Shown here: in pieces, positions 36,087-46,471 of the stretch
Layout of the letters: the number at the start of each line of letters is the position of its first letter
Numbering within the stretch: position 1 is the first letter of the stretch
Position numbers and translations under genes: made by a program
Notes under the pieces: model-generated
What the model was told of the DNA's origin: nothing
Database searches by the model: none
Seen by the model: only the letters and a program-made list of their open reading frames with translations
NCBI GenBank assembly: GCA_019347675.1
Contig: JAHWKW010000010.1
Location: forward strand, 1-64,000
Source of the DNA: Actinomycetota bacterium
Lineage (GTDB): Bacteria; Actinomycetota; Nitriliruptoria; Nitriliruptorales; JAHWKO01
Reading direction: 5' to 3'
DNA: 64,000 bases

Positions 36087-36314
36087 ATGCACCACACCGC
36101 ACACACCGCGACACACCCGGCCTCGCCAGGCACGCACGGGCGGACCGATGTCCGGTTGCTCGCCGAGGACGGCTCGCTGGTCACCGAGTACGGCCTGATC
36201 GCCATCGTCGGGGCCACCGTGGCGTCGCTCGTCATCAAGTGGGCGAGCAACGGCGCGATCTGGCAGCTGTTCGACGCGGTGACCAAGAAGGTCCGCGTCC
36301 TGCTGGGTGCGTGA
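36087..36314 (+). CDS. Flp-type pilin (DUF4244)
   Basis: A 75-residue prepilin and the likely major subunit of the Tad pilus. The leader ends at Gly29, followed by SLVTEYGLIAIVG with Glu34 and Tyr35, the Flp motif, in a single hydrophobic helix; the tail is short and basic. A prepilin peptidase would cut after Gly29; no such gene is in the window. A strong AAGGAG precedes the ATG, the best ribosome-binding site of the operon, as expected for an abundant subunit. Confidence 0.85.
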   Translation: MHHTAHTATHPASPGTHGRTDVRLLAEDGSLVTEYGLIAIVGATVASLVIKWASNGAIWQLFDAVTKKVRVLLGA

Positions 36315-36673
36315 TACGCCCGGCCGGCCAGGGCGGGTCGGTGAGCCTCGAGCTCGCGCTCACCGTCCCCGCCCTGGCCCTGCTCGTCCTGGTCGTCCTG
36401 CACGCCGCCGTCTACGCCCGTGACGCCCTGCTGGTGCAGGCAGCGGCGCAGCGGGGCGCCCGGGTGGCAGCCACCACGAGCGACGACACGGCCGTGGTCG
36501 CCGCCGTGCGCGACGCCCTCGACGGGCGCGACGCCGCTGTGACCGTCACCGCGCGGGGCCGCGTCGGCCAACCCATCCGGGTGCGGGTGACGATGCGCTC
36601 CCGAGCCGGCCAGGGCCGGCTGGACCTGACCGCCGTCGGCGTCACGGCGGTCGAACCCGGTGCGCTGCCGTGA
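36311..36673 (+). CDS. TadE-like minor pilin
   Basis: A 120-residue pseudopilin. A short leader ends in GG, followed by SVSLELALTVPALALLVLVV (Glu in the helix) and a soluble ~80-residue domain with VTVTARGRVGQPIRVRVTMR strands. It matches the position of Rv3655c. It starts at GTG 36311 (GTGA overlap with the pilin gene) and overlaps the next gene by 4 nt. Confidence 0.85.
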   Translation: MIRPAGQGGSVSLELALTVPALALLVLVVLHAAVYARDALLVQAAAQRGARVAATTSDDTAVVAAVRDALDGRDAAVTVTARGRVGQPIRVRVTMRSRAGQGRLDLTAVGVTAVEPGALP

Positions 36674-37143
36674 TCGGCGACCGCCGCATGGTCGGGCGCC
36701 GACGACGCCGCACCCTCGACGGCGCGCCCGATCACCCACGCCGCGAGGACGGCAGCGCCGCGATGCTCGGGTGGAGCGCCATCGCGGTCACCGTGGTGGC
36801 GCTCGTCATCGCCGTGGATCTCGCCGCCTACCTCGTCGCGGCCCAGCGCGCCCAAGGCGCTGCCGACGCCGCGGCCCTGGCCGCGGTCGCTGCCAGCCAC
36901 CCCCGGGGAGGCGCCCCGGGACCGCCCGAGCACGCCGCCCGGTCTGTGACACACGCTGCGGGCGCCGTGTTGCAAAACTGCCGCTGCCCGCCCGGCGCCC
37001 GCCAGGTCACCGTCACGGTCGAGGTCCGCGTCCGGGCCGTGGCCGTGACGCGCCTGGCGGGTCGGAAGGTCCGGGCGACCGCTCAGGCTAGGCTGGTCCG
37101 CGACCGAAACCCTTCTCGAGGTCGCTCGTTGGTACGGCCGTGA
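36670..37143 (+). CDS. TadE/TadG-like protein (Rv3654c-type)
   Basis: A 157-residue protein with a long Arg-rich N-terminus, then EDGSAAMLGWSAIAVTVVAL as the processed helix, AQRAQGAADAAALAAVAASH as in TadG/Rv3654c, one CRC pair, and a strand-rich end. It corresponds to the helicase/secretion-neighbourhood TadE-like family at the end of actinobacterial tad operons. It begins at GTG 36670, overlapping the preceding stop. Last gene of the cluster. Confidence 0.82.
   Translation: MIGDRRMVGRRRRRTLDGAPDHPRREDGSAAMLGWSAIAVTVVALVIAVDLAAYLVAAQRAQGAADAAALAAVAASHPRGGAPGPPEHAARSVTHAAGAVLQNCRCPPGARQVTVTVEVRVRAVAVTRLAGRKVRATAQARLVRDRNPSRGRSLVRP
37089..37094 (+). promoter_or_regulatory. Possible -10 box TAGGCT for the sortase gene
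   Basis: TAGGCT lies inside the end of the TadG-like gene, 121 nt before the sortase start. The hexamer recurs before other genes here. Confidence 0.4.
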
Positions 37144-37215: not shown

Positions 37216-37986
37216 ATGGATGAGCGACGCGACGAGCCCGAGCAGTGGGGTTCGGGGTGGGGCGGCTTCACGATGCCCGACCCGGTGCAGGAGCAACCCA
37301 CCAAGACGACGTCCTCGGGGTTCCTGCTCGACTCGCTGCGCACCCGGCCGGCCGGTCGCCGCATCCTGTCGGGGCTGATCGCGTTGCTGTTCCTCTCCGG
37401 CGCGGGGATGTTCACGTACCCGTTCTTCACCGACGTCTACACCAGCCAGGTCATCCAGCAGCGTCTCGAGGACGACTACGTCAACGTCAAGGTCAAGACC
37501 TTCGACGAGTGGCAGGCGACCGTCCAGGACGGGCGGGCGCTGACCAAGATCGTCATGCCCGCGCTGGGCGTGGAGACGCTCGTGGTCGAGGGGATCTCGC
37601 CGACGGCGCTGCGTGCGGGGGCCGGCCACTACCCCAAGACGCCGCTGCCCGGCCAGGACGGCAACGTCGCGATCGCCGGTCACCGCACCACGTACGGCAA
37701 GCCGTTCAACGCCGTCGACAAGCTGAAGGAGGGCGACAAGATCCTCCTGCTCACGCCGGTCGGTGAGTTCACGTACGCGGTGTCGCCCCCGCCTCCCGGA
37801 TGGAACGCCAACCCCTACATCACCGGCCCGAGCGACTGGTCGGTGATCGAGCCCACCGCCGAACCCACCCTCACGCTCACGACCTGCCACCCCAAGGGAT
37901 CGGCGGCCAAGCGGCTGGTGGTGCGCGCAACCCTCGTCTCGTCCGACCCGCCCGGAACCTACGCCGCATCGAAGCAGAAGGCCTGA
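37216..37986 (+). CDS. Class E sortase
   Basis: A 256-residue transpeptidase. A cytoplasmic N-terminus is followed by one membrane helix (ILSGLIALLFLSGAGMFTYP), then the sortase barrel: His in NVAIAGHRTTYGKPF, Cys in LTLTTCHPKGSA and Arg in RLVVRA. Class E enzymes of high-GC actinobacteria usually recognise LAXTG. I find no LAXTG or LPXTG protein in this window. AGGAG precedes the ATG. Confidence 0.9.
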   Translation: MDERRDEPEQWGSGWGGFTMPDPVQEQPTKTTSSGFLLDSLRTRPAGRRILSGLIALLFLSGAGMFTYPFFTDVYTSQVIQQRLEDDYVNVKVKTFDEWQATVQDGRALTKIVMPALGVETLVVEGISPTALRAGAGHYPKTPLPGQDGNVAIAGHRTTYGKPFNAVDKLKEGDKILLLTPVGEFTYAVSPPPPGWNANPYITGPSDWSVIEPTAEPTLTLTTCHPKGSAAKRLVVRATLVSSDPPGTYAASKQKA

Positions 37987-38031: not shown

Positions 38032-39360
38032 GTGCGCACGGTCGCCGTCCTGTTGCTCGCTTCGGCTTTGGTGGCGTGCACCGGCGGGCCGCCCGAGCAC
38101 GTCCGTATCGGTGTGGTGGCCCCGTTGGGTGGGCCCCGCGCGTACCTGGGGCACGAGGTCCGCGCCGGCGCGGAACAGGCGATCGGCGACCTCAACGACA
38201 GCGGTGGACTCCTGGGGGCCCCGGTCGAGCTGATCACCGTCGACGACAGCGACCTGGTCGCCCTCCCCGGGCAGCTGGCCGCCCTCGCCGAGCGCGAGCG
38301 GGTGTCGGCCGTGATCGGGCCGGAGGTCCCCGGCGTCCTCCTCGGCCCGCGTAACCCCCTGGCCCGCCGCTCGGTCCCGGCGCTGCTGGTCACCGCGTTC
38401 GGCGGGGACCTTGCGCAGGCCGACACCACCGTCGTCCGCACGGTGCCCAGCGCCCACGCCCAGACCGCCGCGCTCGGTCGGTGGCTGACCGACGTGCGCC
38501 GCGTGCACGACGTCGCGATCCTGATCGCCGACCCGGTGGAGGGCACCCTGGTCCGCGAGGCGGTCGTCGCAGGTCTGGACGGCGTCGGCGCCCGGGTGGC
38601 GGCGGTCGATGAGGTCGCTGCGGACAGCCCGGACCTGGGACCCGCCGTGGCGAGGTTGCGCCGTCGCGCCCCGGATGCCAGGGCGGTCCTGCTGTGGGCA
38701 CCGCCGCCCGCAGCTGCCCGGGCGACTCGGGCGATCCGCGATCAGGGCTGGGACGTCCAGCTGGCGGTCCCGATCAGTGCCTTCGTCGGCGAGTACCGCA
38801 CGCTCGCGGGGGAGGCGAGCGAGGGCGTGGTTCTCCCACTGCCCTTCCGCGAGGACTGGTTCGGGCCGCGCCTGCAGGAGTGGTTGCTGCGCTGGCACCG
38901 CGACCGCGGGATCAGCGCGCTGCCGCAGCTGCAGACGCTCGTGCTCGACCTCCCGGTCGCTGCAATGGCTGCCTACGACGCGGTCGGCCTGGTCGCCGCC
39001 GCCGTCCGCGACGCGGGAAGCCGCGAACCGGCCGCCGTCGCCGACGCTCTTGGACAGGTCCGGCACGACGGGCTGCTGCACGACTACCGCATCGGCGGAG
39101 GCCGCGAGGCGTGGGACGCGTCGCAGCTGTACGTCGCCCGGTTCCACCACCTGGCGGTCGTCTACGACGTCGATCCCCGTTTCGACGCTGCCCAGCAGCG
39201 ACGCTTCTACGAGCTGCAGGTCCGTCTGGGTTTCCTCCCGGACGAGGCGCGCGATGGTCCGACCGCCGGGTTGATCGAGGAGCTGCTGGCCGAGCGCCGT
39301 GCCACGGCGCCCGCCTACCAACCGCCCCTGCCACCGCCGGGGCCGGTCGGACGTCCGTGA
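38032..39360 (+). CDS. ABC transporter substrate-binding lipoprotein (LIV type)
   Basis: A 442-residue type-1 periplasmic-binding-fold lipoprotein. The lipobox is LVACTG (Cys16). The fold is that of the Leu/Ile/Val receptors: RIGVVAPLGGPRAYLGHEVR, DLNDSGGLLGAPVELITVDD, VSAVIGPEVPGV, and in the second lobe AMAAYDAVGLVAAAV and DALGQVRHDGLLHDYRI. A long Pro-rich tail ends the protein. It is first in a four-gene ABC operon, coupled to the next gene by a 4-nt overlap. The ligand is unknown. Confidence 0.87.
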   Translation: MRTVAVLLLASALVACTGGPPEHVRIGVVAPLGGPRAYLGHEVRAGAEQAIGDLNDSGGLLGAPVELITVDDSDLVALPGQLAALAERERVSAVIGPEVPGVLLGPRNPLARRSVPALLVTAFGGDLAQADTTVVRTVPSAHAQTAALGRWLTDVRRVHDVAILIADPVEGTLVREAVVAGLDGVGARVAAVDEVAADSPDLGPAVARLRRRAPDARAVLLWAPPPAAARATRAIRDQGWDVQLAVPISAFVGEYRTLAGEASEGVVLPLPFREDWFGPRLQEWLLRWHRDRGISALPQLQTLVLDLPVAAMAAYDAVGLVAAAVRDAGSREPAAVADALGQVRHDGLLHDYRIGGGREAWDASQLYVARFHHLAVVYDVDPRFDAAQQRRFYELQVRLGFLPDEARDGPTAGLIEELLAERRATAPAYQPPLPPPGPVGRP

Positions 39361-40235
39361 CCGTCGCCCTGCTGGCTGCACTGGCGCTCGGAGCCGCCTA
39401 CGGGCTGGTGGGCGTGGCCGTCGCAGCGGTGGCCCTGGCGTCCCGGACCCTGCACCTGGCCGTGGGGGCGGTCCTGGTGGCCGGCGTGCTGATCTACGTC
39501 CACCTCACCGCGGTCGGCGCTGCCCCGCTGCTGGCCGCCGGGATCGCGGTGGCGGCCGGCGCGACGGTCTCCGCGCTCCTCGAGCCGCTCGTCCTGCGTC
39601 CTCTGGGGCAGTCGCGTCGCGACGAGGCCCGCGGCGACGATGTCGCGCTGCGCTGGCTGGTGGCCTTGGCGGTCGTGGCGGCCGTGCTCGACGCGGTCAC
39701 GGCCCGCACGCTGGGCACCCGCCATTTCCGGCCACGTCCCTTGGTCGGCGCGCTCGGTGATGCGGCGGCCGGGCCCGGCGCGTTGCTCGTTCCCGCCGCC
39801 GCCGGTCTCGTGCTCGCCGTCGGCCTGGCGGCGGTTCTGCGCGGCACCCGCTTCGGGCGGCGCGTGCCGCTGGTGGGGGCGGCGCCACTCGCGGCCGCGC
39901 TCGGCGGGATCTCGCCCCGCCGGGTCCGCGCCGGCGCGCTGGCGTTGACCGGCGCCGCCGCGGTCGTCGCCGGGCTGCTGCTCGCGCCGGTCACCGCGGT
40001 GGGGACCGCCCAGACCGGCGGGCTGACGGTGCGGGGCGTCGCGGCGGCTGCCGTCCTGGGCATCGCCGGGCCGGCCCGAGCCGTGGCCGGCGGGCTGCTG
40101 CTGGGCGCCGCCGAATCGGCCGGCCAGTCGTTGTGGCCGGCAGCCGGCGGCACGGTCGCGGTTGCGGCGGTGATCGTCGCGGTCCTGGTCGGACCGGCCC
40201 GGAGGGTGACGCGGCGAGGGGACCGACCGTGGTGA
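39357..40235 (+). CDS. LIV-type ABC permease (LivH-like)
   Basis: A 292-residue membrane protein with about eight helices, very rich in Ala/Val/Leu. It has LivH-like features: AAYGLVGVAVAAVALASRTL, LLEPLVLRPL after the third helix, and TRFGRRVPLVGAAPLAAALG, which corresponds to the cytoplasmic coupling loop (normally TR-G-A-RA-A-N-E-A-LMG). The loop is degenerate compared with typical LivH. GTG 39357 overlaps the receptor stop; 4-nt overlap with the next gene. Confidence 0.78.
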   Translation: MTVALLAALALGAAYGLVGVAVAAVALASRTLHLAVGAVLVAGVLIYVHLTAVGAAPLLAAGIAVAAGATVSALLEPLVLRPLGQSRRDEARGDDVALRWLVALAVVAAVLDAVTARTLGTRHFRPRPLVGALGDAAAGPGALLVPAAAGLVLAVGLAAVLRGTRFGRRVPLVGAAPLAAALGGISPRRVRAGALALTGAAAVVAGLLLAPVTAVGTAQTGGLTVRGVAAAAVLGIAGPARAVAGGLLLGAAESAGQSLWPAAGGTVAVAAVIVAVLVGPARRVTRRGDRPW

Positions 40236-41725
40236 GGATCGGTGCTGGCGTGCTCGGGGCGGCGCTCGCCGCCGTGGTTGTGGCGGTGGCCGCACCGGTG
40301 GGGCTGGTCAGTGCCAGCCTGCGGGTGGCGGTGGCGGCGGTGCTGGCCAGCGGAGCGTGGCTGAGCCTGCGGCGCACCGGCCTTGTGGACCTGGGTACGG
40401 CCGGAGCGGCCGCGGCCGGTGCGTACGCGACGGTCGCCACGGCGCTGGCCGGCCTGCCAACCGCGCTGGGTCTGCCCGCGGGGGCGGTGGCCGGTGCCGC
40501 GGTCGGGGCGGCCGTGGGCGCGACCGGCGGCCGGGTGGGACGGACGCTGACGGCGCTGACGTCCCTGGCGGTCGGCCTGGCGGTGGTTGCGGTGCTCGGT
40601 GCGGTCCCTGTGTGGGGTGGCGCCGCCGGATTCCACGCCGTCCCGTTGCTGACACCGTCCGAACGCGGCGACCTGGTGGTGCTGCTGCTCATCGCCGTGG
40701 CTGCGGTGATGGCGGTCACCCGGGTCGCGCGGTCTCACGTGGGCGCTGCCGGGTCGGTCGCGGCCCGGGCGCCACACGTGGCCGCCACCCTGGGCCGCTG
40801 GCCTGTCGTCGACGCCGCCGTGGCGGGTGCAGCAGCCGGGGCCGTGCTGGGCGTGGGGGGAGCGGCGGGCGCAGCGGCCACCGGCTCGGTGGTGCCGGGC
40901 GGGTACGGGCTGTCGCTCGCCGCCGCGCTGGCTCTCGCGGCGCTCGTCGGCGGGGAACGGCCGCTGGCGGGGACGGTGGGTGCGGCGGTGGTCTTCGCTC
41001 CCGCCGTGCTGTGGCCGACCGTCGCGGTCGTGTCTGAGGCGCCGCTGCTGGTCACGGGCGTGGCCGGGATGGCCCTGCTCGCCTGGCGCCCTGGTGGGCT
41101 GCTGACCGGCGGCACCGGTGACGAGCCCGTGCCGGAGGGACCGTCGGACGTTCCGCCGCGACCACGGTCGTCGCCGCTGCCGCTCACCGTTTGCGACGCC
41201 CCCGTGCCCGGCGGTCGGGTCGTCTCCTTCGAGGTTCAGGCGGGGCAGATCGTCGCTCTCGCCGGCCGCAACGGGTCCGGCAAGTCCACGCTGCTGGCCC
41301 GGATCGGGGGACAACTTCCCCACCACGGCAGCGTCCGCCTGGCCGGGGTCGCCCCGGCGCGCAGCGTCACCGGCCGTGCCCGCCGTGGCGTGGCGCGGAC
41401 CTGGCAACACCCGCCCCGACTGCCACAACACGACGCGCTCACGGTCGTCGGCGGGGCCGACGCCGCGGCTGCGCGGTGGGCCCGCGCCGTCCTCGGCGAC
41501 AGTGCCGACACGCCCGCCGGCGCCGACCTCGTCCGCCTCGCCGCCGCCCGCCCCAGCCTCGCGCTGGTCGACGAGCCCGCCGCCCACGTGCCCTCCCAGC
41601 GGGTCGCGACGCTGCTGCGTGGGCTCGCCGACGGCGGGGCGGCGGTCGTCGTCGCCGAACACCGCCCGGAGGTCCTGGCCGCCGCCGACCGCACCGTCCA
41701 TCTCGGCGAGGACCCGATCCGGTGA
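40232..41725 (+). CDS. Fused LIV permease-ATPase (LivM-LivG) lacking the ABC signature
   Basis: A 497-residue fusion. Residues 1-290 form a LivM-like permease with about nine helices. Residues 318-497 form a short ABC ATPase: Walker A GRNGSGKST (345-353), Q-loop Gln392, Walker B LALVDEP (443-449) and switch His477 (VAEHRPE). The signature LSGGQ is missing: the expected place reads TPAGAD (427-432), and the usual helical domain is shortened. It can bind ATP but could not complete a partner's site. It starts at GTG 40232 (or 40229) and overlaps the next gene by 4 nt. Confidence 0.82.
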   Translation: MRIGAGVLGAALAAVVVAVAAPVGLVSASLRVAVAAVLASGAWLSLRRTGLVDLGTAGAAAAGAYATVATALAGLPTALGLPAGAVAGAAVGAAVGATGGRVGRTLTALTSLAVGLAVVAVLGAVPVWGGAAGFHAVPLLTPSERGDLVVLLLIAVAAVMAVTRVARSHVGAAGSVAARAPHVAATLGRWPVVDAAVAGAAAGAVLGVGGAAGAAATGSVVPGGYGLSLAAALALAALVGGERPLAGTVGAAVVFAPAVLWPTVAVVSEAPLLVTGVAGMALLAWRPGGLLTGGTGDEPVPEGPSDVPPRPRSSPLPLTVCDAPVPGGRVVSFEVQAGQIVALAGRNGSGKSTLLARIGGQLPHHGSVRLAGVAPARSVTGRARRGVARTWQHPPRLPQHDALTVVGGADAAAARWARAVLGDSADTPAGADLVRLAAARPSLALVDEPAAHVPSQRVATLLRGLADGGAAVVVAEHRPEVLAAADRTVHLGEDPIR

Positions 41726-42312
41726 TCCTGTCGGCGACCCTGACCCTGGCAACGGGACCGATCCACCTGGAGGTGGCAGCCGGCGACGCTGCCGTCCTCG
41801 ACGGCCCGTCGGCCGGGGCGGCGGTCGCTGCGCTGGCAGGCACCGACGGTCGCCGCGACCACCGCATCCACCTGGGAGGCCGCGACCTGGGTCGGCTGCC
41901 GACGCACGTGCGGGTCCGCCGCGGCCTGGGTCTGGTCATCGACGCGGCCGTGGCTGGCGATGTCAGCGTCCGCGACCACCTGGCAGCGGTCGTGGGCGGT
42001 CGGAGGGCCGACGCCCTCCTGGACTCGGCACCGCTCCTGGCCGGGCGAGGCAGCGACCCGGCGGGGGTCTTGTCCGGCGGCGAGCGCCGGATCCTCGCGT
42101 GGCTGCGGTGCCTGGCGACCGACCCCGAGGCGGTCGTCCTCGACCGCGCCGGCGCCGGGCTCGACCTGCCCACCAGCGACTGGGCCGCGGGTACCGTTCG
42201 TCGCTGGCGGCAGGCCGGCGTGGCGGTCGTCGTCCATCCGGCGACGCCCGGGGAGCGCCGGTGGGTCGAGTCAGCTGGCGCAGACCAGACACGGACGGTC
42301 GAGGAACCGTAG
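41722..42312 (+). CDS. Degenerate LIV ABC ATPase (LivF-like) lacking Walker A
   Basis: A 196-residue ABC domain. The P-loop position reads GPSAGAAVA (28-36) without Lys, and Walker B reads VVLDRAG, with Arg142 in place of the catalytic Glu. The signature LSGGE (117-121), followed by RRILAWLRCLATDPEA, is intact, and a His follows at 172. It therefore cannot hydrolyse ATP on its own P-loop but can supply the signature to a partner. This is the mirror image of the upstream LivG-like domain. GTG 41722 overlaps the preceding stop. Confidence 0.8.
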   Translation: MILSATLTLATGPIHLEVAAGDAAVLDGPSAGAAVAALAGTDGRRDHRIHLGGRDLGRLPTHVRVRRGLGLVIDAAVAGDVSVRDHLAAVVGGRRADALLDSAPLLAGRGSDPAGVLSGGERRILAWLRCLATDPEAVVLDRAGAGLDLPTSDWAAGTVRRWRQAGVAVVVHPATPGERRWVESAGADQTRTVEEP

Positions 42313-42409: not shown

Positions 42410-43657
42410 GTGAGACGACTGGCCGCCACCGTCGCGACGGCCCTGATCGTGGTGCTCGCGACCGCGGGGACCGCTGCTGCCACCGTCACCGCCAGCGTCA
42501 CCTCGCCGGGTGCGAAGATCGAAGGCCCGGCGGCAGTGTCCGTGCGCGTCGACCGCGAACTCACCGACAGCGTCAACCGCGTCGACGTCCGGCTGCGCCG
42601 CGGCGGCGATGCGGTGTGGGACGCGTCCCTGACCTGTGGGAACTGCGGCACCGCATGGACGACGTCCGACTGGGGCGGGAAGACGCTCAACCCGGGCGGT
42701 CTCCCCAACGGGACCTACCAACTCCACCCGGTCATCGATGGCAAAGAGTTCGGCGGCCGCGACGTGTGGATCTCGGTGGCGCCGTCGCGGGTGAGCAACC
42801 TCAAGACCTCCGTGTCCGGCCAGGATGTCACCGTCACGTGGACCCGCGCCCCCGAACCGGACATCTCCGGGTACCGCGTTCAGCGCCGCATCAAGGATGG
42901 GGCGTGGCAGCAGATCGCCAGCATCGGTCCGGGAGCGGACCGGTACGCCGAGAGGCTGAGCCCCGGCAAGTACGAGTACCGGATCGTGACGGTCCGCCCC
43001 GACGGCAAGGGAGGCCACATCACGGTCACGAGCTCGGCCGTGGCCGCCGCGGTCTCGCCGCCACCCGCGCCAACGCAGCCCAGCGAGACGTCCGGGTCCG
43101 GCGGCGGCTCGACCGAGTCGACCGGCGGGTCGACCGGCGGGTCGACCGGCGGGAGCGACGACGGGTCCACAACCGCGACCGGCGGGACGACCGTGCAGCC
43201 GGGAGGCGGGGCCGCGACCGGGGACCCTGCCTCCGCCGAGGGTGAGGGCACCGGCGGCGACGGTCCGCAACAAGCCCCCTCCGAGGCGTCCACCACCCAG
43301 ACCAGCGCCCGGACCGCCGGTGCCGGACGGCGGGTCGCGCCACCCCCCGGTGTCCGCCGCAGCCTGATGCTCGGCGGCGGCGAGCTGTCCCTACCCGACC
43401 CGCAGGTCGCCGGCCCCCGCGAGCGCTTCTACGGGCAGGACCAGCCGTTCTCGGAGGAGCTCGACTACGGCGACATCGATCCGATCACCGGCGAGCCGAG
43501 GGTCCGCGACGGCACGGCGACGCGGCGGGTTCCCGGCGCCGTCCAGGAGTTCGTCGTCGCCCAGCTCAACACCCCGCTGGTCGCGATCCCCATCGCCGCC
43601 GGTTTGCTCTGCATCGCCCTGGGACTACACGGCATGCGCTGGCTGCGCCAAGGATGA
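42410..43657 (+). CDS. Secreted membrane-anchored protein with fibronectin III domain
   Basis: A 415-residue exported protein. After a signal peptide (about 1-25) comes an Ig-like domain with CGNCGTAW (two Cys, about 75-80), then an FN3 domain (about 128-208: VSNLKTSVSGQDVTVTWTRA to YRIVTVRPDGKGG). A long Gly/Ser/Thr linker follows, an acidic region, and a C-terminal helix (VAIPIAAGLLCIALGLHGM) with RWLRQG. The tail resembles a sorted protein but has no LPXTG or LAXTG before the helix, so it is probably a simple membrane anchor. GGGAGGA lies ~10 nt before the GTG. Function unknown; adhesion is possible. Confidence 0.78.
   Translation: MRRLAATVATALIVVLATAGTAAATVTASVTSPGAKIEGPAAVSVRVDRELTDSVNRVDVRLRRGGDAVWDASLTCGNCGTAWTTSDWGGKTLNPGGLPNGTYQLHPVIDGKEFGGRDVWISVAPSRVSNLKTSVSGQDVTVTWTRAPEPDISGYRVQRRIKDGAWQQIASIGPGADRYAERLSPGKYEYRIVTVRPDGKGGHITVTSSAVAAAVSPPPAPTQPSETSGSGGGSTESTGGSTGGSTGGSDDGSTTATGGTTVQPGGGAATGDPASAEGEGTGGDGPQQAPSEASTTQTSARTAGAGRRVAPPPGVRRSLMLGGGELSLPDPQVAGPRERFYGQDQPFSEELDYGDIDPITGEPRVRDGTATRRVPGAVQEFVVAQLNTPLVAIPIAAGLLCIALGLHGMRWLRQG
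43118..43153 (+). repeat. Three 12-bp tandem repeats in the Gly/Ser/Thr linker
   Basis: TCGACCGGCGGG occurs three times in a row and encodes Ser-Thr-Gly-Gly units of the linker. Confidence 0.9.
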
Positions 43658-44164: not shown

Positions 44165-46471
44165 TCACGGCCCGTGGGCGAGCACCAGGTCGAGGACGGT
44201 GACCGCCCCGGCCTTGTCCAGCGGTTCGTTGCCGTTGCCGCACTTGGGTGAGTGCACGCACGACGGGCAGCCCGCCCGGCAGGCGCACTCCGAGACCGCG
44301 GCGCGCGTGGCGGCCAGGTGCTCGCCGAGGCGCCGGAAGGACCGCTCCGCCAGCCCGGCACCGCCCGCGTAGCCGTCGTAGACGAACACGGTGGGACGGC
44401 CGGTATCGGGGTGACGGGCTGTCGACAGCCCGCCGAGGTCCCACCGGTCACACAGCGCGATCAACGGCAACAGCCCGATCGCGGCGTGCTCCGCGGCGTG
44501 CAGCGACCCTGGCAGCTGCGCCGGCGCGAGCCCGGCGGCGGTGAGCAGGTGCACGGGGATCGCGTACCAGACCGCGACCGTGATCAGCTCGGTGGGCGGC
44601 AGGTCAAGGTCGTGGCGGCCGATCACGCGGCGGGTGGCGTGATCGAGCGTGTCGTACCCGGTGACCTGCTCGGTCACCCGGACACGGCCGAGCCGGACCG
44701 CGACCTCGCCCCGGTCGGCGGCCTCGAGCTCGTCGATCACCGTCACGTCGGCGGTGGACCGCGGGCGGGTGGTGTGGCGCACCTGCGGGGCGCGTCGCAC
44801 CGCGGCGACCCGGCGACGCAAGCTCAGGTCGGTCACCTCGTGGATGTGGCCCTGATGCAGGTAGATCGCTCCCGGATGCACCTGACGTGGTGCGCGTGCG
44901 GCGTCCACATCCCCGATCAGCTCGCCGGATGCGGCATCCACGATCCGCACCGGCGGGCCGCCCGCCGACCGCAGATCGACCTCGGCCGCTGCCCGGCCCC
45001 GCCCGACCCAGAAGTACCGGCCGGCCCGCTCCCGCAGCACGCCGGCGTCCGCGTCGGCGCCCAGTAGGTCCGGTGCCGAGGGGCCGAACCACCGCCGCGC
45101 GTCCTCGGCGTCGAGCGGGTGCTCCTGGCAGGCGCACCGCAGGTGCGGGCCGAGCACGTGCGCGTTGGCCGGATCGGCGATCGCGTCCTCGGGCGGTCGC
45201 CCCAGCAGCTGGTCGGGGTGGGCGACGAGGTACTGGTCGAGGGGGTCGTCGTCGGCGACCAGCACCCCGATCGCCTCCCGTCCCGACCGCCCGGCCCGCC
45301 CCAGGCGCTGCCAGAACGCCGCAGCGGTCCCCGGGTAGCCCGCCAGCACCACGGCGTCCAGCCCGCCGACGTCGATGCCGAGCTCGAGCGCCTCGGTGGC
45401 CGCCACGCCGAGCAGCTCCCCAGCGGTCAGGGCGTCCTCCAGCTCCCGTCGTTCCTGCGGCAGGTACCCCGCGCGGTAGGCGGCCACCGTGTCGGCCAGC
45501 GGGGAGTCGCCCAGACGTTCACGGGCCACCACGGCGGTGACCTCCGCTGCGCGACGGCTGCGGACGAACACCAGCGTCTGCACCCCGGCGGCCACCAGCG
45601 ACGCCAGGACCTCCCCGGCCTCACCGACGGTCGACCGCCGGATCCCGGCGTCCTCGTCGATCATGGCTGGCTGCCAGAAGCCGATGTCAATCGCCCCGCG
45701 CGGCGAGGTGTCGTCGGCCACCGCCTCCACGGCCAGGCCGGTCAGCACGGCGGCGTGCTCGGCCGGGTTGCCGATCGTTGCGGACGCCAGCACGAACGTC
45801 GGAGCGGCGCCGTACCGATCGCACAGGCGGCGTAGCCGGCGCAGGATCACCGCGACGTGGGCGCCGAAAACGCCTCGGGCGACGTGACACTCGTCGACCA
45901 CCACGTACGCCAGCCGGTGCAGGACGTCACCCCAACGGCGGTGGTCGGGGAGCACACCGTGGTGCAGCAGGTCCGGGTTGGTCAGGATCCAGTTCGCCGT
46001 GCGCCGGATCGCGTCGCGCTCCGGGCGGGGCGTGTCGCCGTCGAGCGCGGCGGCACGCAGCTGCGGCAGCCGCCACGCCCGCAACGAGCGGAGCTGGTCG
46101 CGGGCCAGCGCCTTGGTCGGCGCCAGGTACAGGGCCGTGGCGGTGGGGTCGGCGACCAGCGCCTCGACGACCGGCAGCTGGTAGCAGAGGGTCTTCCCGC
46201 TGGCGGTGCCGGTGGCCACGATCACGTGGCGATCGGCGCGGACGAGCTCCCGGGCCTGCGCCTGGTGGCGGTACAGGCGGGCGACGCCCATCAGCTCCAG
46301 TCGGCTGCGCAGTGTCGGGTCGAGGTCTGCCGGGATCTCCACGGTGGTCCCGCGGCGGGACGGGAGCCGTTCGCGGTGGACCAGCGGGCACCCACCCTGG
46401 CTGGCGCTGCGGGCCGCAGCGACCAGCTCGAGGACGTCCCGAGGGTCGTGCAGCGCGGCGTGCTCGACCAC
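44165..46471 (-). CDS. DEAD/DEAH helicase with DUF1998 domain (Rv3649/MrfA-like)
   Basis: A 768-residue superfamily 2 helicase. It shows Q-motif-like LYRHQAQA, Walker A ATGTASGKTLCY, APTKALARDQ, VVVDECHVARG (DECH), LASATIGN, and in the second RecA domain ATEALELGIDVGGLD and WQRLGRAGRSG. The C-terminal DUF1998 domain has four Cys in CACRAGCPSCVHSPKC, which bind zinc in MrfA. B. subtilis MrfA takes part in repair of mitomycin C lesions, so a DNA repair role is likely. It is followed on the left by the palindromic repeats. GTG start, with a leaderless promoter 6 nt upstream. Confidence 0.92.
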   Translation of the reverse strand: MVEHAALHDPRDVLELVAAARSASQGGCPLVHRERLPSRRGTTVEIPADLDPTLRSRLELMGVARLYRHQAQARELVRADRHVIVATGTASGKTLCYQLPVVEALVADPTATALYLAPTKALARDQLRSLRAWRLPQLRAAALDGDTPRPERDAIRRTANWILTNPDLLHHGVLPDHRRWGDVLHRLAYVVVDECHVARGVFGAHVAVILRRLRRLCDRYGAAPTFVLASATIGNPAEHAAVLTGLAVEAVADDTSPRGAIDIGFWQPAMIDEDAGIRRSTVGEAGEVLASLVAAGVQTLVFVRSRRAAEVTAVVARERLGDSPLADTVAAYRAGYLPQERRELEDALTAGELLGVAATEALELGIDVGGLDAVVLAGYPGTAAAFWQRLGRAGRSGREAIGVLVADDDPLDQYLVAHPDQLLGRPPEDAIADPANAHVLGPHLRCACQEHPLDAEDARRWFGPSAPDLLGADADAGVLRERAGRYFWVGRGRAAAEVDLRSAGGPPVRIVDAASGELIGDVDAARAPRQVHPGAIYLHQGHIHEVTDLSLRRRVAAVRRAPQVRHTTRPRSTADVTVIDELEAADRGEVAVRLGRVRVTEQVTGYDTLDHATRRVIGRHDLDLPPTELITVAVWYAIPVHLLTAAGLAPAQLPGSLHAAEHAAIGLLPLIALCDRWDLGGLSTARHPDTGRPTVFVYDGYAGGAGLAERSFRRLGEHLAATRAAVSECACRAGCPSCVHSPKCGNGNEPLDKAGAVTVLDLVLAHGP

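Follow-up and report, generated by a model that had tools for sequence, protein, structure and literature searches.

The window analysed here is a 64,000-nucleotide stretch (positions 1 to 64,000 of contig 10, JAHWKW010000010.1) of the draft genome of an Actinomycetota bacterium of the order Nitriliruptorales (GCA_019347675.1; 3.49 Mb in 76 contigs), and its positions 38032-42312 hold a LIV-type importer set on the forward strand, comprising a binding protein, LivH, a LivM-LivG fusion and a LivF-like protein. The substrate-binding protein (SBP; 38032..39360) is of the Peripla_BP_6 type (PF13458, 131.3 bits; cut-off 31.7) and is probably a lipoprotein, as judged from a lipobox recognised by eye and a Cys at residue 16 that is present in 8/8 aligned rows. 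It is followed by two permease-type parts that were scored against BPD_transp_2 (PF02653, cut-off 26.8 bits); LivH (39357..40235) exceeds the cut-off with 44.8 bits and the LivM part of the fusion stays below it with 17.5 bits; in alignment A1 the LivM part matches PF02653 at E<=0.01 in five of the six members, that of the window included, the best value being 2.5e-9. In the fusion gene (40232-41725) the permease fills about the first two thirds (40232..41170) and is followed by the LivG-type ATPase domain (41171..41725; PF00005, 46.9 bits, cut-off 25), the boundary between the two being approximate. The LivF-like protein, of the ATPase fold (41722..42312, 196 aa), starts with GTG at 41722, overlaps LivM-LivG by 4 bases and stays under the PF00005 cut-off with 19 bits. 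The genes overlap and stand in the full importer order SBP-LivH-LivM-LivG-LivF, with two different ATPase subunits as in the LIV/HAAT branched-chain amino acid importers (LivKHMGF, TC 3.A.1.4). The NCBIfam equivalog cut-offs are reached neither by LivG (P0001; 30.9 against 362 bits) nor by LivF (P0002; 21.2 against 441), and since the LivF cut-off was exceeded in none of the 119 genomes of our LivF survey, the low LivF score says little here.

Motifs were read from the translations of 40232-41725 and 41722-42312. The LivG domain (P0001, residues about 314-497) contains Walker A as GRNGSGKST (345-353), the Q-loop Gln as Q392 in RTWQ, D447-E448-P449 (VDEP) on the Walker B side and the switch His as H477 in AEHRP; LSGGQ is absent, the signature place being occupied by ADTPAGAD, and the D-loop is lost (AAHVPS). 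The LivF-like protein retains the signature LSGGE at 117-121 and the Leu-Asp of the D-loop (AGLD), and it carries GPSAGAAVA at the Walker A position, a Q-loop with no Gln (LVID) and Arg142 in place of the catalytic Glu (LDRAG). The original prediction had described the two domains in these terms, with TPAGAD for LSGGQ in LivG, and the translations bear it out for both; the D-loops, the LivF Q-loop and the fusion of LivG to a permease are refinements to it.

In the composite site of an ATP-binding cassette (ABC) dimer the D-loop is counted on the same side as the signature. The remainder of such a site is contributed by Walker A and B and the A-, Q- and H-loops of one domain and by the signature of the other, as outlined in passages of PMC7756269. 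Site 1 is here taken as the Walker side of LivG with the signature side of LivF, and site 2 as the Walker A of LivF with the signature of LivG. Apart from the A-loop aromatic, site 1 has its catalytic motifs, and site 2 lacks its own; the D-loop, kept in LivF while lost in LivG, fits the same composite-site rule. As in ABC proteins with one consensus and one degenerate site, site 1 is complete in its catalytic motifs and site 2 has neither catalytic Glu nor signature. The earlier reasoning that the complementary losses leave exactly one complete catalytic motif set, which the heterodimer alone could build, is thereby upheld as far as motifs can tell. Homodimers were rejected as candidates, a LivG dimer having no signature and a LivF dimer no Walker A, and neither protein would be expected to form a canonical site in that way.

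By profile, LivF matches ABC ATPases of the PDB, with ABCB1 chains first and LptB and the LivF structure 1ji0, which is closely related in sequence to E. coli LivF, lower. A structure model of LivF (mean predicted local distance difference test score, pLDDT, 91.4) retrieved 4wbs first in Foldseek, followed by LptB, with 1ji0 at rank 23. LivF is predicted to fold still as an ABC domain, the AlphaFold and Foldseek results supporting the fold only and coming from an input alignment (A4) that included LivG rows and one ordinary LivF, a possible pull on the model. The model of the LivM part was unreliable (pLDDT of ten-residue blocks 27-61) and was not used.

The locus was found in 7 of the 66 genomes of the class, all within one order of 36 genomes; the window genome belongs to one family and the other six carriers to a second, in which they represent five genera. 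A LivF search of 120 related genomes gave clear orthologs in six genomes other than that of the window, at E 9.6e-44 to 3.7e-28, with E 1.6e-15 for the best match beyond this set, and a LivH search of the 66 class genomes gave six carriers including the window's own; in the seventh, G013, the contig starts inside LivM. Identity to the window within the order is 48-56% for LivMG, 43-58% for LivF and 57-62% for SBP (six rows each), the SBP range referring to five order relatives and falling to 39-40% in two outgroups.

Joint loss across homologs had been set beforehand as the test of the idea, with random loss, or a LivF-like protein missing or intact in relatives, counting for decay. The same complementary split was observed in 7/7 orthologous loci, both losses occurring together in each and LivF being present in all, so that the idea withstood its own test. 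LivG is without LSGGQ in all seven. Where LivF would be expected to have the catalytic Glu, four of the seven have Arg, two Ala and one Gly, and the LivF Walker A stretch differs in each of the seven, is shorter than the window's in the other six and contains no Lys in any. Site-1 columns are invariant among the seven orthologs at 11/11 positions of LivG (background 51/185; hypergeometric P 3e-7) and at 7/9 of LivF (background 38/196; P 1.7e-4), where the P values assume independent columns, ignore shared descent and refer to columns picked from known motifs after the alignments had been viewed. Both variable LivF columns sit in the first half of the D-loop, LSGGE and the D-loop Leu-Asp being retained in 7/7. 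Not one site-2 column is invariant (0/12 and 0/13; seven LivG and seven LivF domains).

LivG and LivF are open frames in all seven genomes, on which ground a frameshift or misassembly was rejected; the lone TGA in the matches of G030 and G013 is LivF's own stop codon. LivM-LivG and LivF overlap by 4 bases in all six split loci. In G013 (L034:2-1777) a single open frame, at least 592 residues long and including a Pro/Gly-rich linker, spans LivM, LivG and LivF; by its sequence it is a natural single-chain motor with a 1:1 link of LivG to LivF. The ratio of nonsynonymous to synonymous differences per site (pN/pS) is below 1 in 15/15 pairs of six sequences for each of LivMG, LivF and SBP. The corresponding ratio of substitution rates (dN/dS) of the closest pair is 0.28 for LivMG (LivM 0.24, LivG 0.36), 0.44 for LivF and 0.15 for SBP, values obtained by plain counting in GC-rich genes whose synonymous divergence is high. 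They show purifying selection that is weaker on the ATPases than on SBP.

LIV importers are usually taken as symmetric machines. In the LivF survey 87 of the 119 phylum genomes were positive, and the 30 best-scoring loci (L050-L079), a choice that leans toward typical LivF, were read for their motifs; no two of them share a genome, the genome of the window contributes one from another LIV system, and a LivG stands beside every LivF. The survey LivGs have the Q-loop Gln and switch His in 30/30 and a signature other than LSGGQ in 30/30, that of L079 being ambiguous though not LSGGQ. The LivFs have [LM]SGGE, the Walker A Lys and the Glu in 30/30, Gln for the switch His in 30/30, and Glu in place of the Q-loop Gln in 26/30. 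The E. coli proteins agree (LAYGD in LivG; VPE, MSGGE and VEQ in LivF), and the 1ji0 sequence agrees with the ordinary LivF pattern. We infer that ordinary LivG/LivF pairs combine a canonical site 1 with a sub-canonical site 2, and the window's pair appears to mark the far end of an asymmetry already present in the LIV family. No paper describing this lopsidedness was found in those parts of the open-access literature that were consulted.

An SBP search of 396 phylum genomes yielded two further loci, in G074 and G088 of another class, at 40% identity; the searches of this set scored at most four (SBP) or three (A1) candidates per genome, and carriers may be missed. G074 has SBP, LivH, the LivM-LivG fusion, LivF and the conserved downstream protein described below on one contig, with LivF about 5 kb past LivM-LivG. 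In G088, SBP closes one contig, and LivM-LivG, LivF, the downstream protein and a DECH helicase lie at the end of another; the likeness to G074, whose LivM-LivG is 63% identical, suggests that the two contigs belong together. Both loci have the Walker A Lys, a signature (LSYGQ in LivG, LSGGE in LivF) and the catalytic Glu in both ATPases; in LivF the Q-loop position is occupied by Ser or Thr, and Lys replaces the switch His. Since neither ATPase of these two loci has lost Walker A, signature or Glu, the extreme loss appears to be derived, and the simplest reading is that it arose on the way to the window's clade. A match in G327 was rejected as the same locus, being an ordinary LivM-LivG fusion beside an intact LivF. 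G074 also has two binding-protein genes of the same type in tandem before LivH (L038:4544-7608), which are 32% and 39% identical to the window SBP.

Directly upstream of the SBP gene lies a sortase gene on the forward strand (37216..37986; PF04203, 100.8 bits, cut-off 26.6), whose best NCBIfam match is to class E sortase (126.4 bits, under the cut-off of 160). It adjoins the SBP gene in the five order loci that reach this far (L031, L032, L033, L035 and L036) and may be co-transcribed with the importer genes. Just upstream of it, at 36239-37143, are TadE-like genes of the helicase/secretion neighbourhood, with NCBIfam matches slightly under their cut-offs. In one carrier (G020, L032:2185-5662) a stretch of about 3.5 kb with an apparent sensor-kinase gene and another gene lies between the SBP gene and LivH.

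On the other side, a conserved protein with a C-terminal hydrophobic stretch is encoded on the forward strand at 42410..43657; no Pfam family scores above its cut-off, and the label "fibronectin-III-like" that we would give it is our own reading with no database match behind it. By tblastn it stands beside LivF in five of the six order relatives (not L034) and gives a weak match in outgroup L038 (25%, E 6e-6); outgroup L044 has a similar protein by eye, with none found there by tblastn. In sum, the protein accompanies the transporter in most ingroup loci, and in the outgroup loci it can be recognised weakly. Further on, the reverse strand encodes the DECH-box helicase of the actinobacterial "helicase/secretion neighbourhood" (44165..46471; TIGR03817, 996.6 bits, cut-off 874.1), a syntenic anchor that flanks the locus in 6/6 order relatives and in L044 and was not seen in L038 within the stretch examined. 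A small zinc-ribbon-like gene also stands between the sortase and helicase genes.

Set against ordinary LIV/HAAT systems, the window's importer has the same gene order with a Peripla_BP_6 SBP, a LivG with Q-loop Gln, switch His and non-LSGGQ signature, and [LM]SGGE in a LivF whose ordinary counterparts have Gln for the switch His. It differs in that ordinary LivF has the Walker A Lys and catalytic Glu (30/30) and ordinary LivG a signature motif, none of which remains in the window pair, and in its shortened helical subdomains. E. coli RbsA, aligned directly, likewise has one complete and one degenerate site, with GENGAGKST, Gln, LSIGD, Glu and His in domain 1 and, in domain 2, Arg for the Walker A Lys, LSGGN and no switch His; however, RbsA domain 2 has a full-length P-loop and the Walker B Glu, each chain carries two ATPases and the substrate is ribose. 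The RbsA-type (CUT2) layout of two ATPase domains per chain with no permease does not apply here, the genes being separate in 6/7 loci and fused behind LivM in G013. RbsA and NupO are fused double ATPases belonging to importers of the ribose and nucleoside type. In B. subtilis both also have one degenerate site, according to excerpts of PMC11466899. The statement in the original prediction that such a perfect division of labour is unusual in an importer was hence too strong, given RbsA and given that ordinary LIV pairs lean the same way in all 30 sampled loci and in E. coli LivGF.

Heterodimeric exporters (TM287/288, BmrCD, TAP, MRP1, Pdr5) resemble the window pair in having deviations in both ATPases that all fall within one composite site; in Pdr5, which is one of the most degenerate of them, every motif of nucleotide-binding site 1 (NBS1) is changed, as stated in portions of PMC7756269. 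The same portions describe exporter degenerate sites as conserved among orthologs, with ATP there possibly serving as a scaffold (PMC7756269). Apart from their exporter fold, these systems differ in that the degenerate site is described as conserved and probably holding ATP, whereas the window-type site 2 drifts, with no invariant column in either set. For E. coli DppDF, which are also heterodimeric importer ATPases, sections of PMC12136057 report nucleotide in DppF only, in one state; closed DppABCDF, by contrast, binds two ATP analogues (same sections).

We consider it rather probable that the locus encodes a LIV-type importer whose motor is an obligate heterodimer of LivG and LivF with a single working ATP site. 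LivG would supply Walker A, Walker B with the catalytic Glu, the Q-loop and the switch His, and LivF, as an activating and non-hydrolysing partner, would supply LSGGE and the D-loop closing over the LivG-bound ATP. With the opposite site (LivF Walker A plus LivG signature) erased, each cycle would bind and hydrolyse one ATP. The motifs, their conservation, the joint loss and the two-site relatives are observed; a dimer, its ATPase activity, transport and the single ATP per cycle are what we infer from the sequences. Likewise, site 2 would no longer bind nucleotide, given its lack of conservation and a P-loop stretch of variable length in which Lys is missing. As for origin, selection on site 2 would have lapsed in this clade, and the parts serving only that site would have been lost. 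The one-sidedness itself is real and conserved, an extreme form of the lopsidedness that ordinary LIV pumps show as well, and what is unusual is its extent, the second site being erased in sequence where others have it weakened. The notion that a single ATP site can suffice has support. A histidine importer with one intact HisP reportedly works. For heterodimeric exporters it has been suggested that one hydrolysed ATP resets the cycle (in part of PMC7756565).

Several observations weigh against this reading. The A-loop aromatic before Walker A, which is Tyr or Phe in all five intact LivGs compared, is absent in 7/7 LivG domains and the hairpin there is shortened (by eye), and because of this absence site 1 may bind ATP weakly. 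In LivG the pattern-based span from the Q-loop to the signature region measures 33-40 residues, whereas four intact LivGs have 64-66 and a fifth has 43; the LivF helical span is 42 in 6/7, the seventh value being a pattern artefact, against 49-52 in five comparison LivFs. Both A-loop loss and shortened helical subdomains might weaken coupling or the affinity for ATP. By the dN/dS counts above, constraint is looser on LivF and LivG than on SBP (0.44 and 0.36 against 0.15). A LivG paralog of the same genome (contig 17, L045) has LSGGQ, an exception to the family trend. The transporter is also dispensable, being found in 7 of the 36 order genomes, several of which are incomplete drafts; in G001 of the same order (L082:11856-13270) the sortase and downstream genes adjoin with no transporter between them, G001 being the only one of ten locus-less order genomes examined at the helicase in which both flanks are recognisable, and in one of the ten the contig ends too early to tell.

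This patchy presence, with the transporter missing as a unit in G001, would suit a system in decay, losing function toward deletion, in which the complementary pattern is coincidental, and so would the dN/dS of LivG and LivF, higher than that of SBP, the trimmed helical subdomains and the missing A-loop. Yet the frames are open in 7/7, site-1 residues are invariant while others vary, the same pattern recurs across the five genera of one family and the different family of the window, SBP and permeases are conserved, and the G013 gene fusion retains both ATPase domains. Random decay is disfavoured by these sequence comparisons, and we regard decay as a distinctly unlikely account. Marginally less unlikely, though still improbable, is a machine that does not transport at all. 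FtsEX acts as an ABC machine of the sensor or mechanical-switch type, and a ligand sensor or mechanical switch for the neighbouring sortase, surface-protein and Tad-pilus genes would accord with sortase, the downstream membrane protein and the DECH helicase being conserved neighbours, and with a LivM so divergent that it falls under the Pfam cut-off. What speaks against it is that the importer genes are all there, canonically ordered and with a conserved SBP, and also that the two-site loci have similar neighbours (the downstream protein in both G074 and G088, and in G088 the helicase as well); since these loci adjoin the same kinds of genes, the linkage does not track the change in the ATPases. 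The degenerate site might finally still bind ATP as a permanent glue, only hydrolysis having been lost there, for which a precedent has been proposed in heterodimeric exporters (in the portions of PMC7756269 cited above). The exporter degenerate site is conserved among orthologs in that account, but here the Walker A stretch is variable with no Lys in 7/7, and we give this the least credence of the three.

Beyond the locus itself, the wider reading is held tentatively, at somewhat less than even likelihood: the LIV family would run a lopsided motor, of which the weaker half has here been erased, such that the closed dimer would hold a single nucleotide in the one ATP site that is left. If this is true, import by this fold can proceed without two bound ATPs. 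The number of ATPs that an importer binds and splits per cycle is still debated, and a natural importer in which the second site is missing in sequence, together with its two-site relatives, would make that question testable. The lopsidedness of ordinary LivG/LivF pairs would mean, in turn, that a common family of nutrient importers is not the symmetric machine that is usually assumed.

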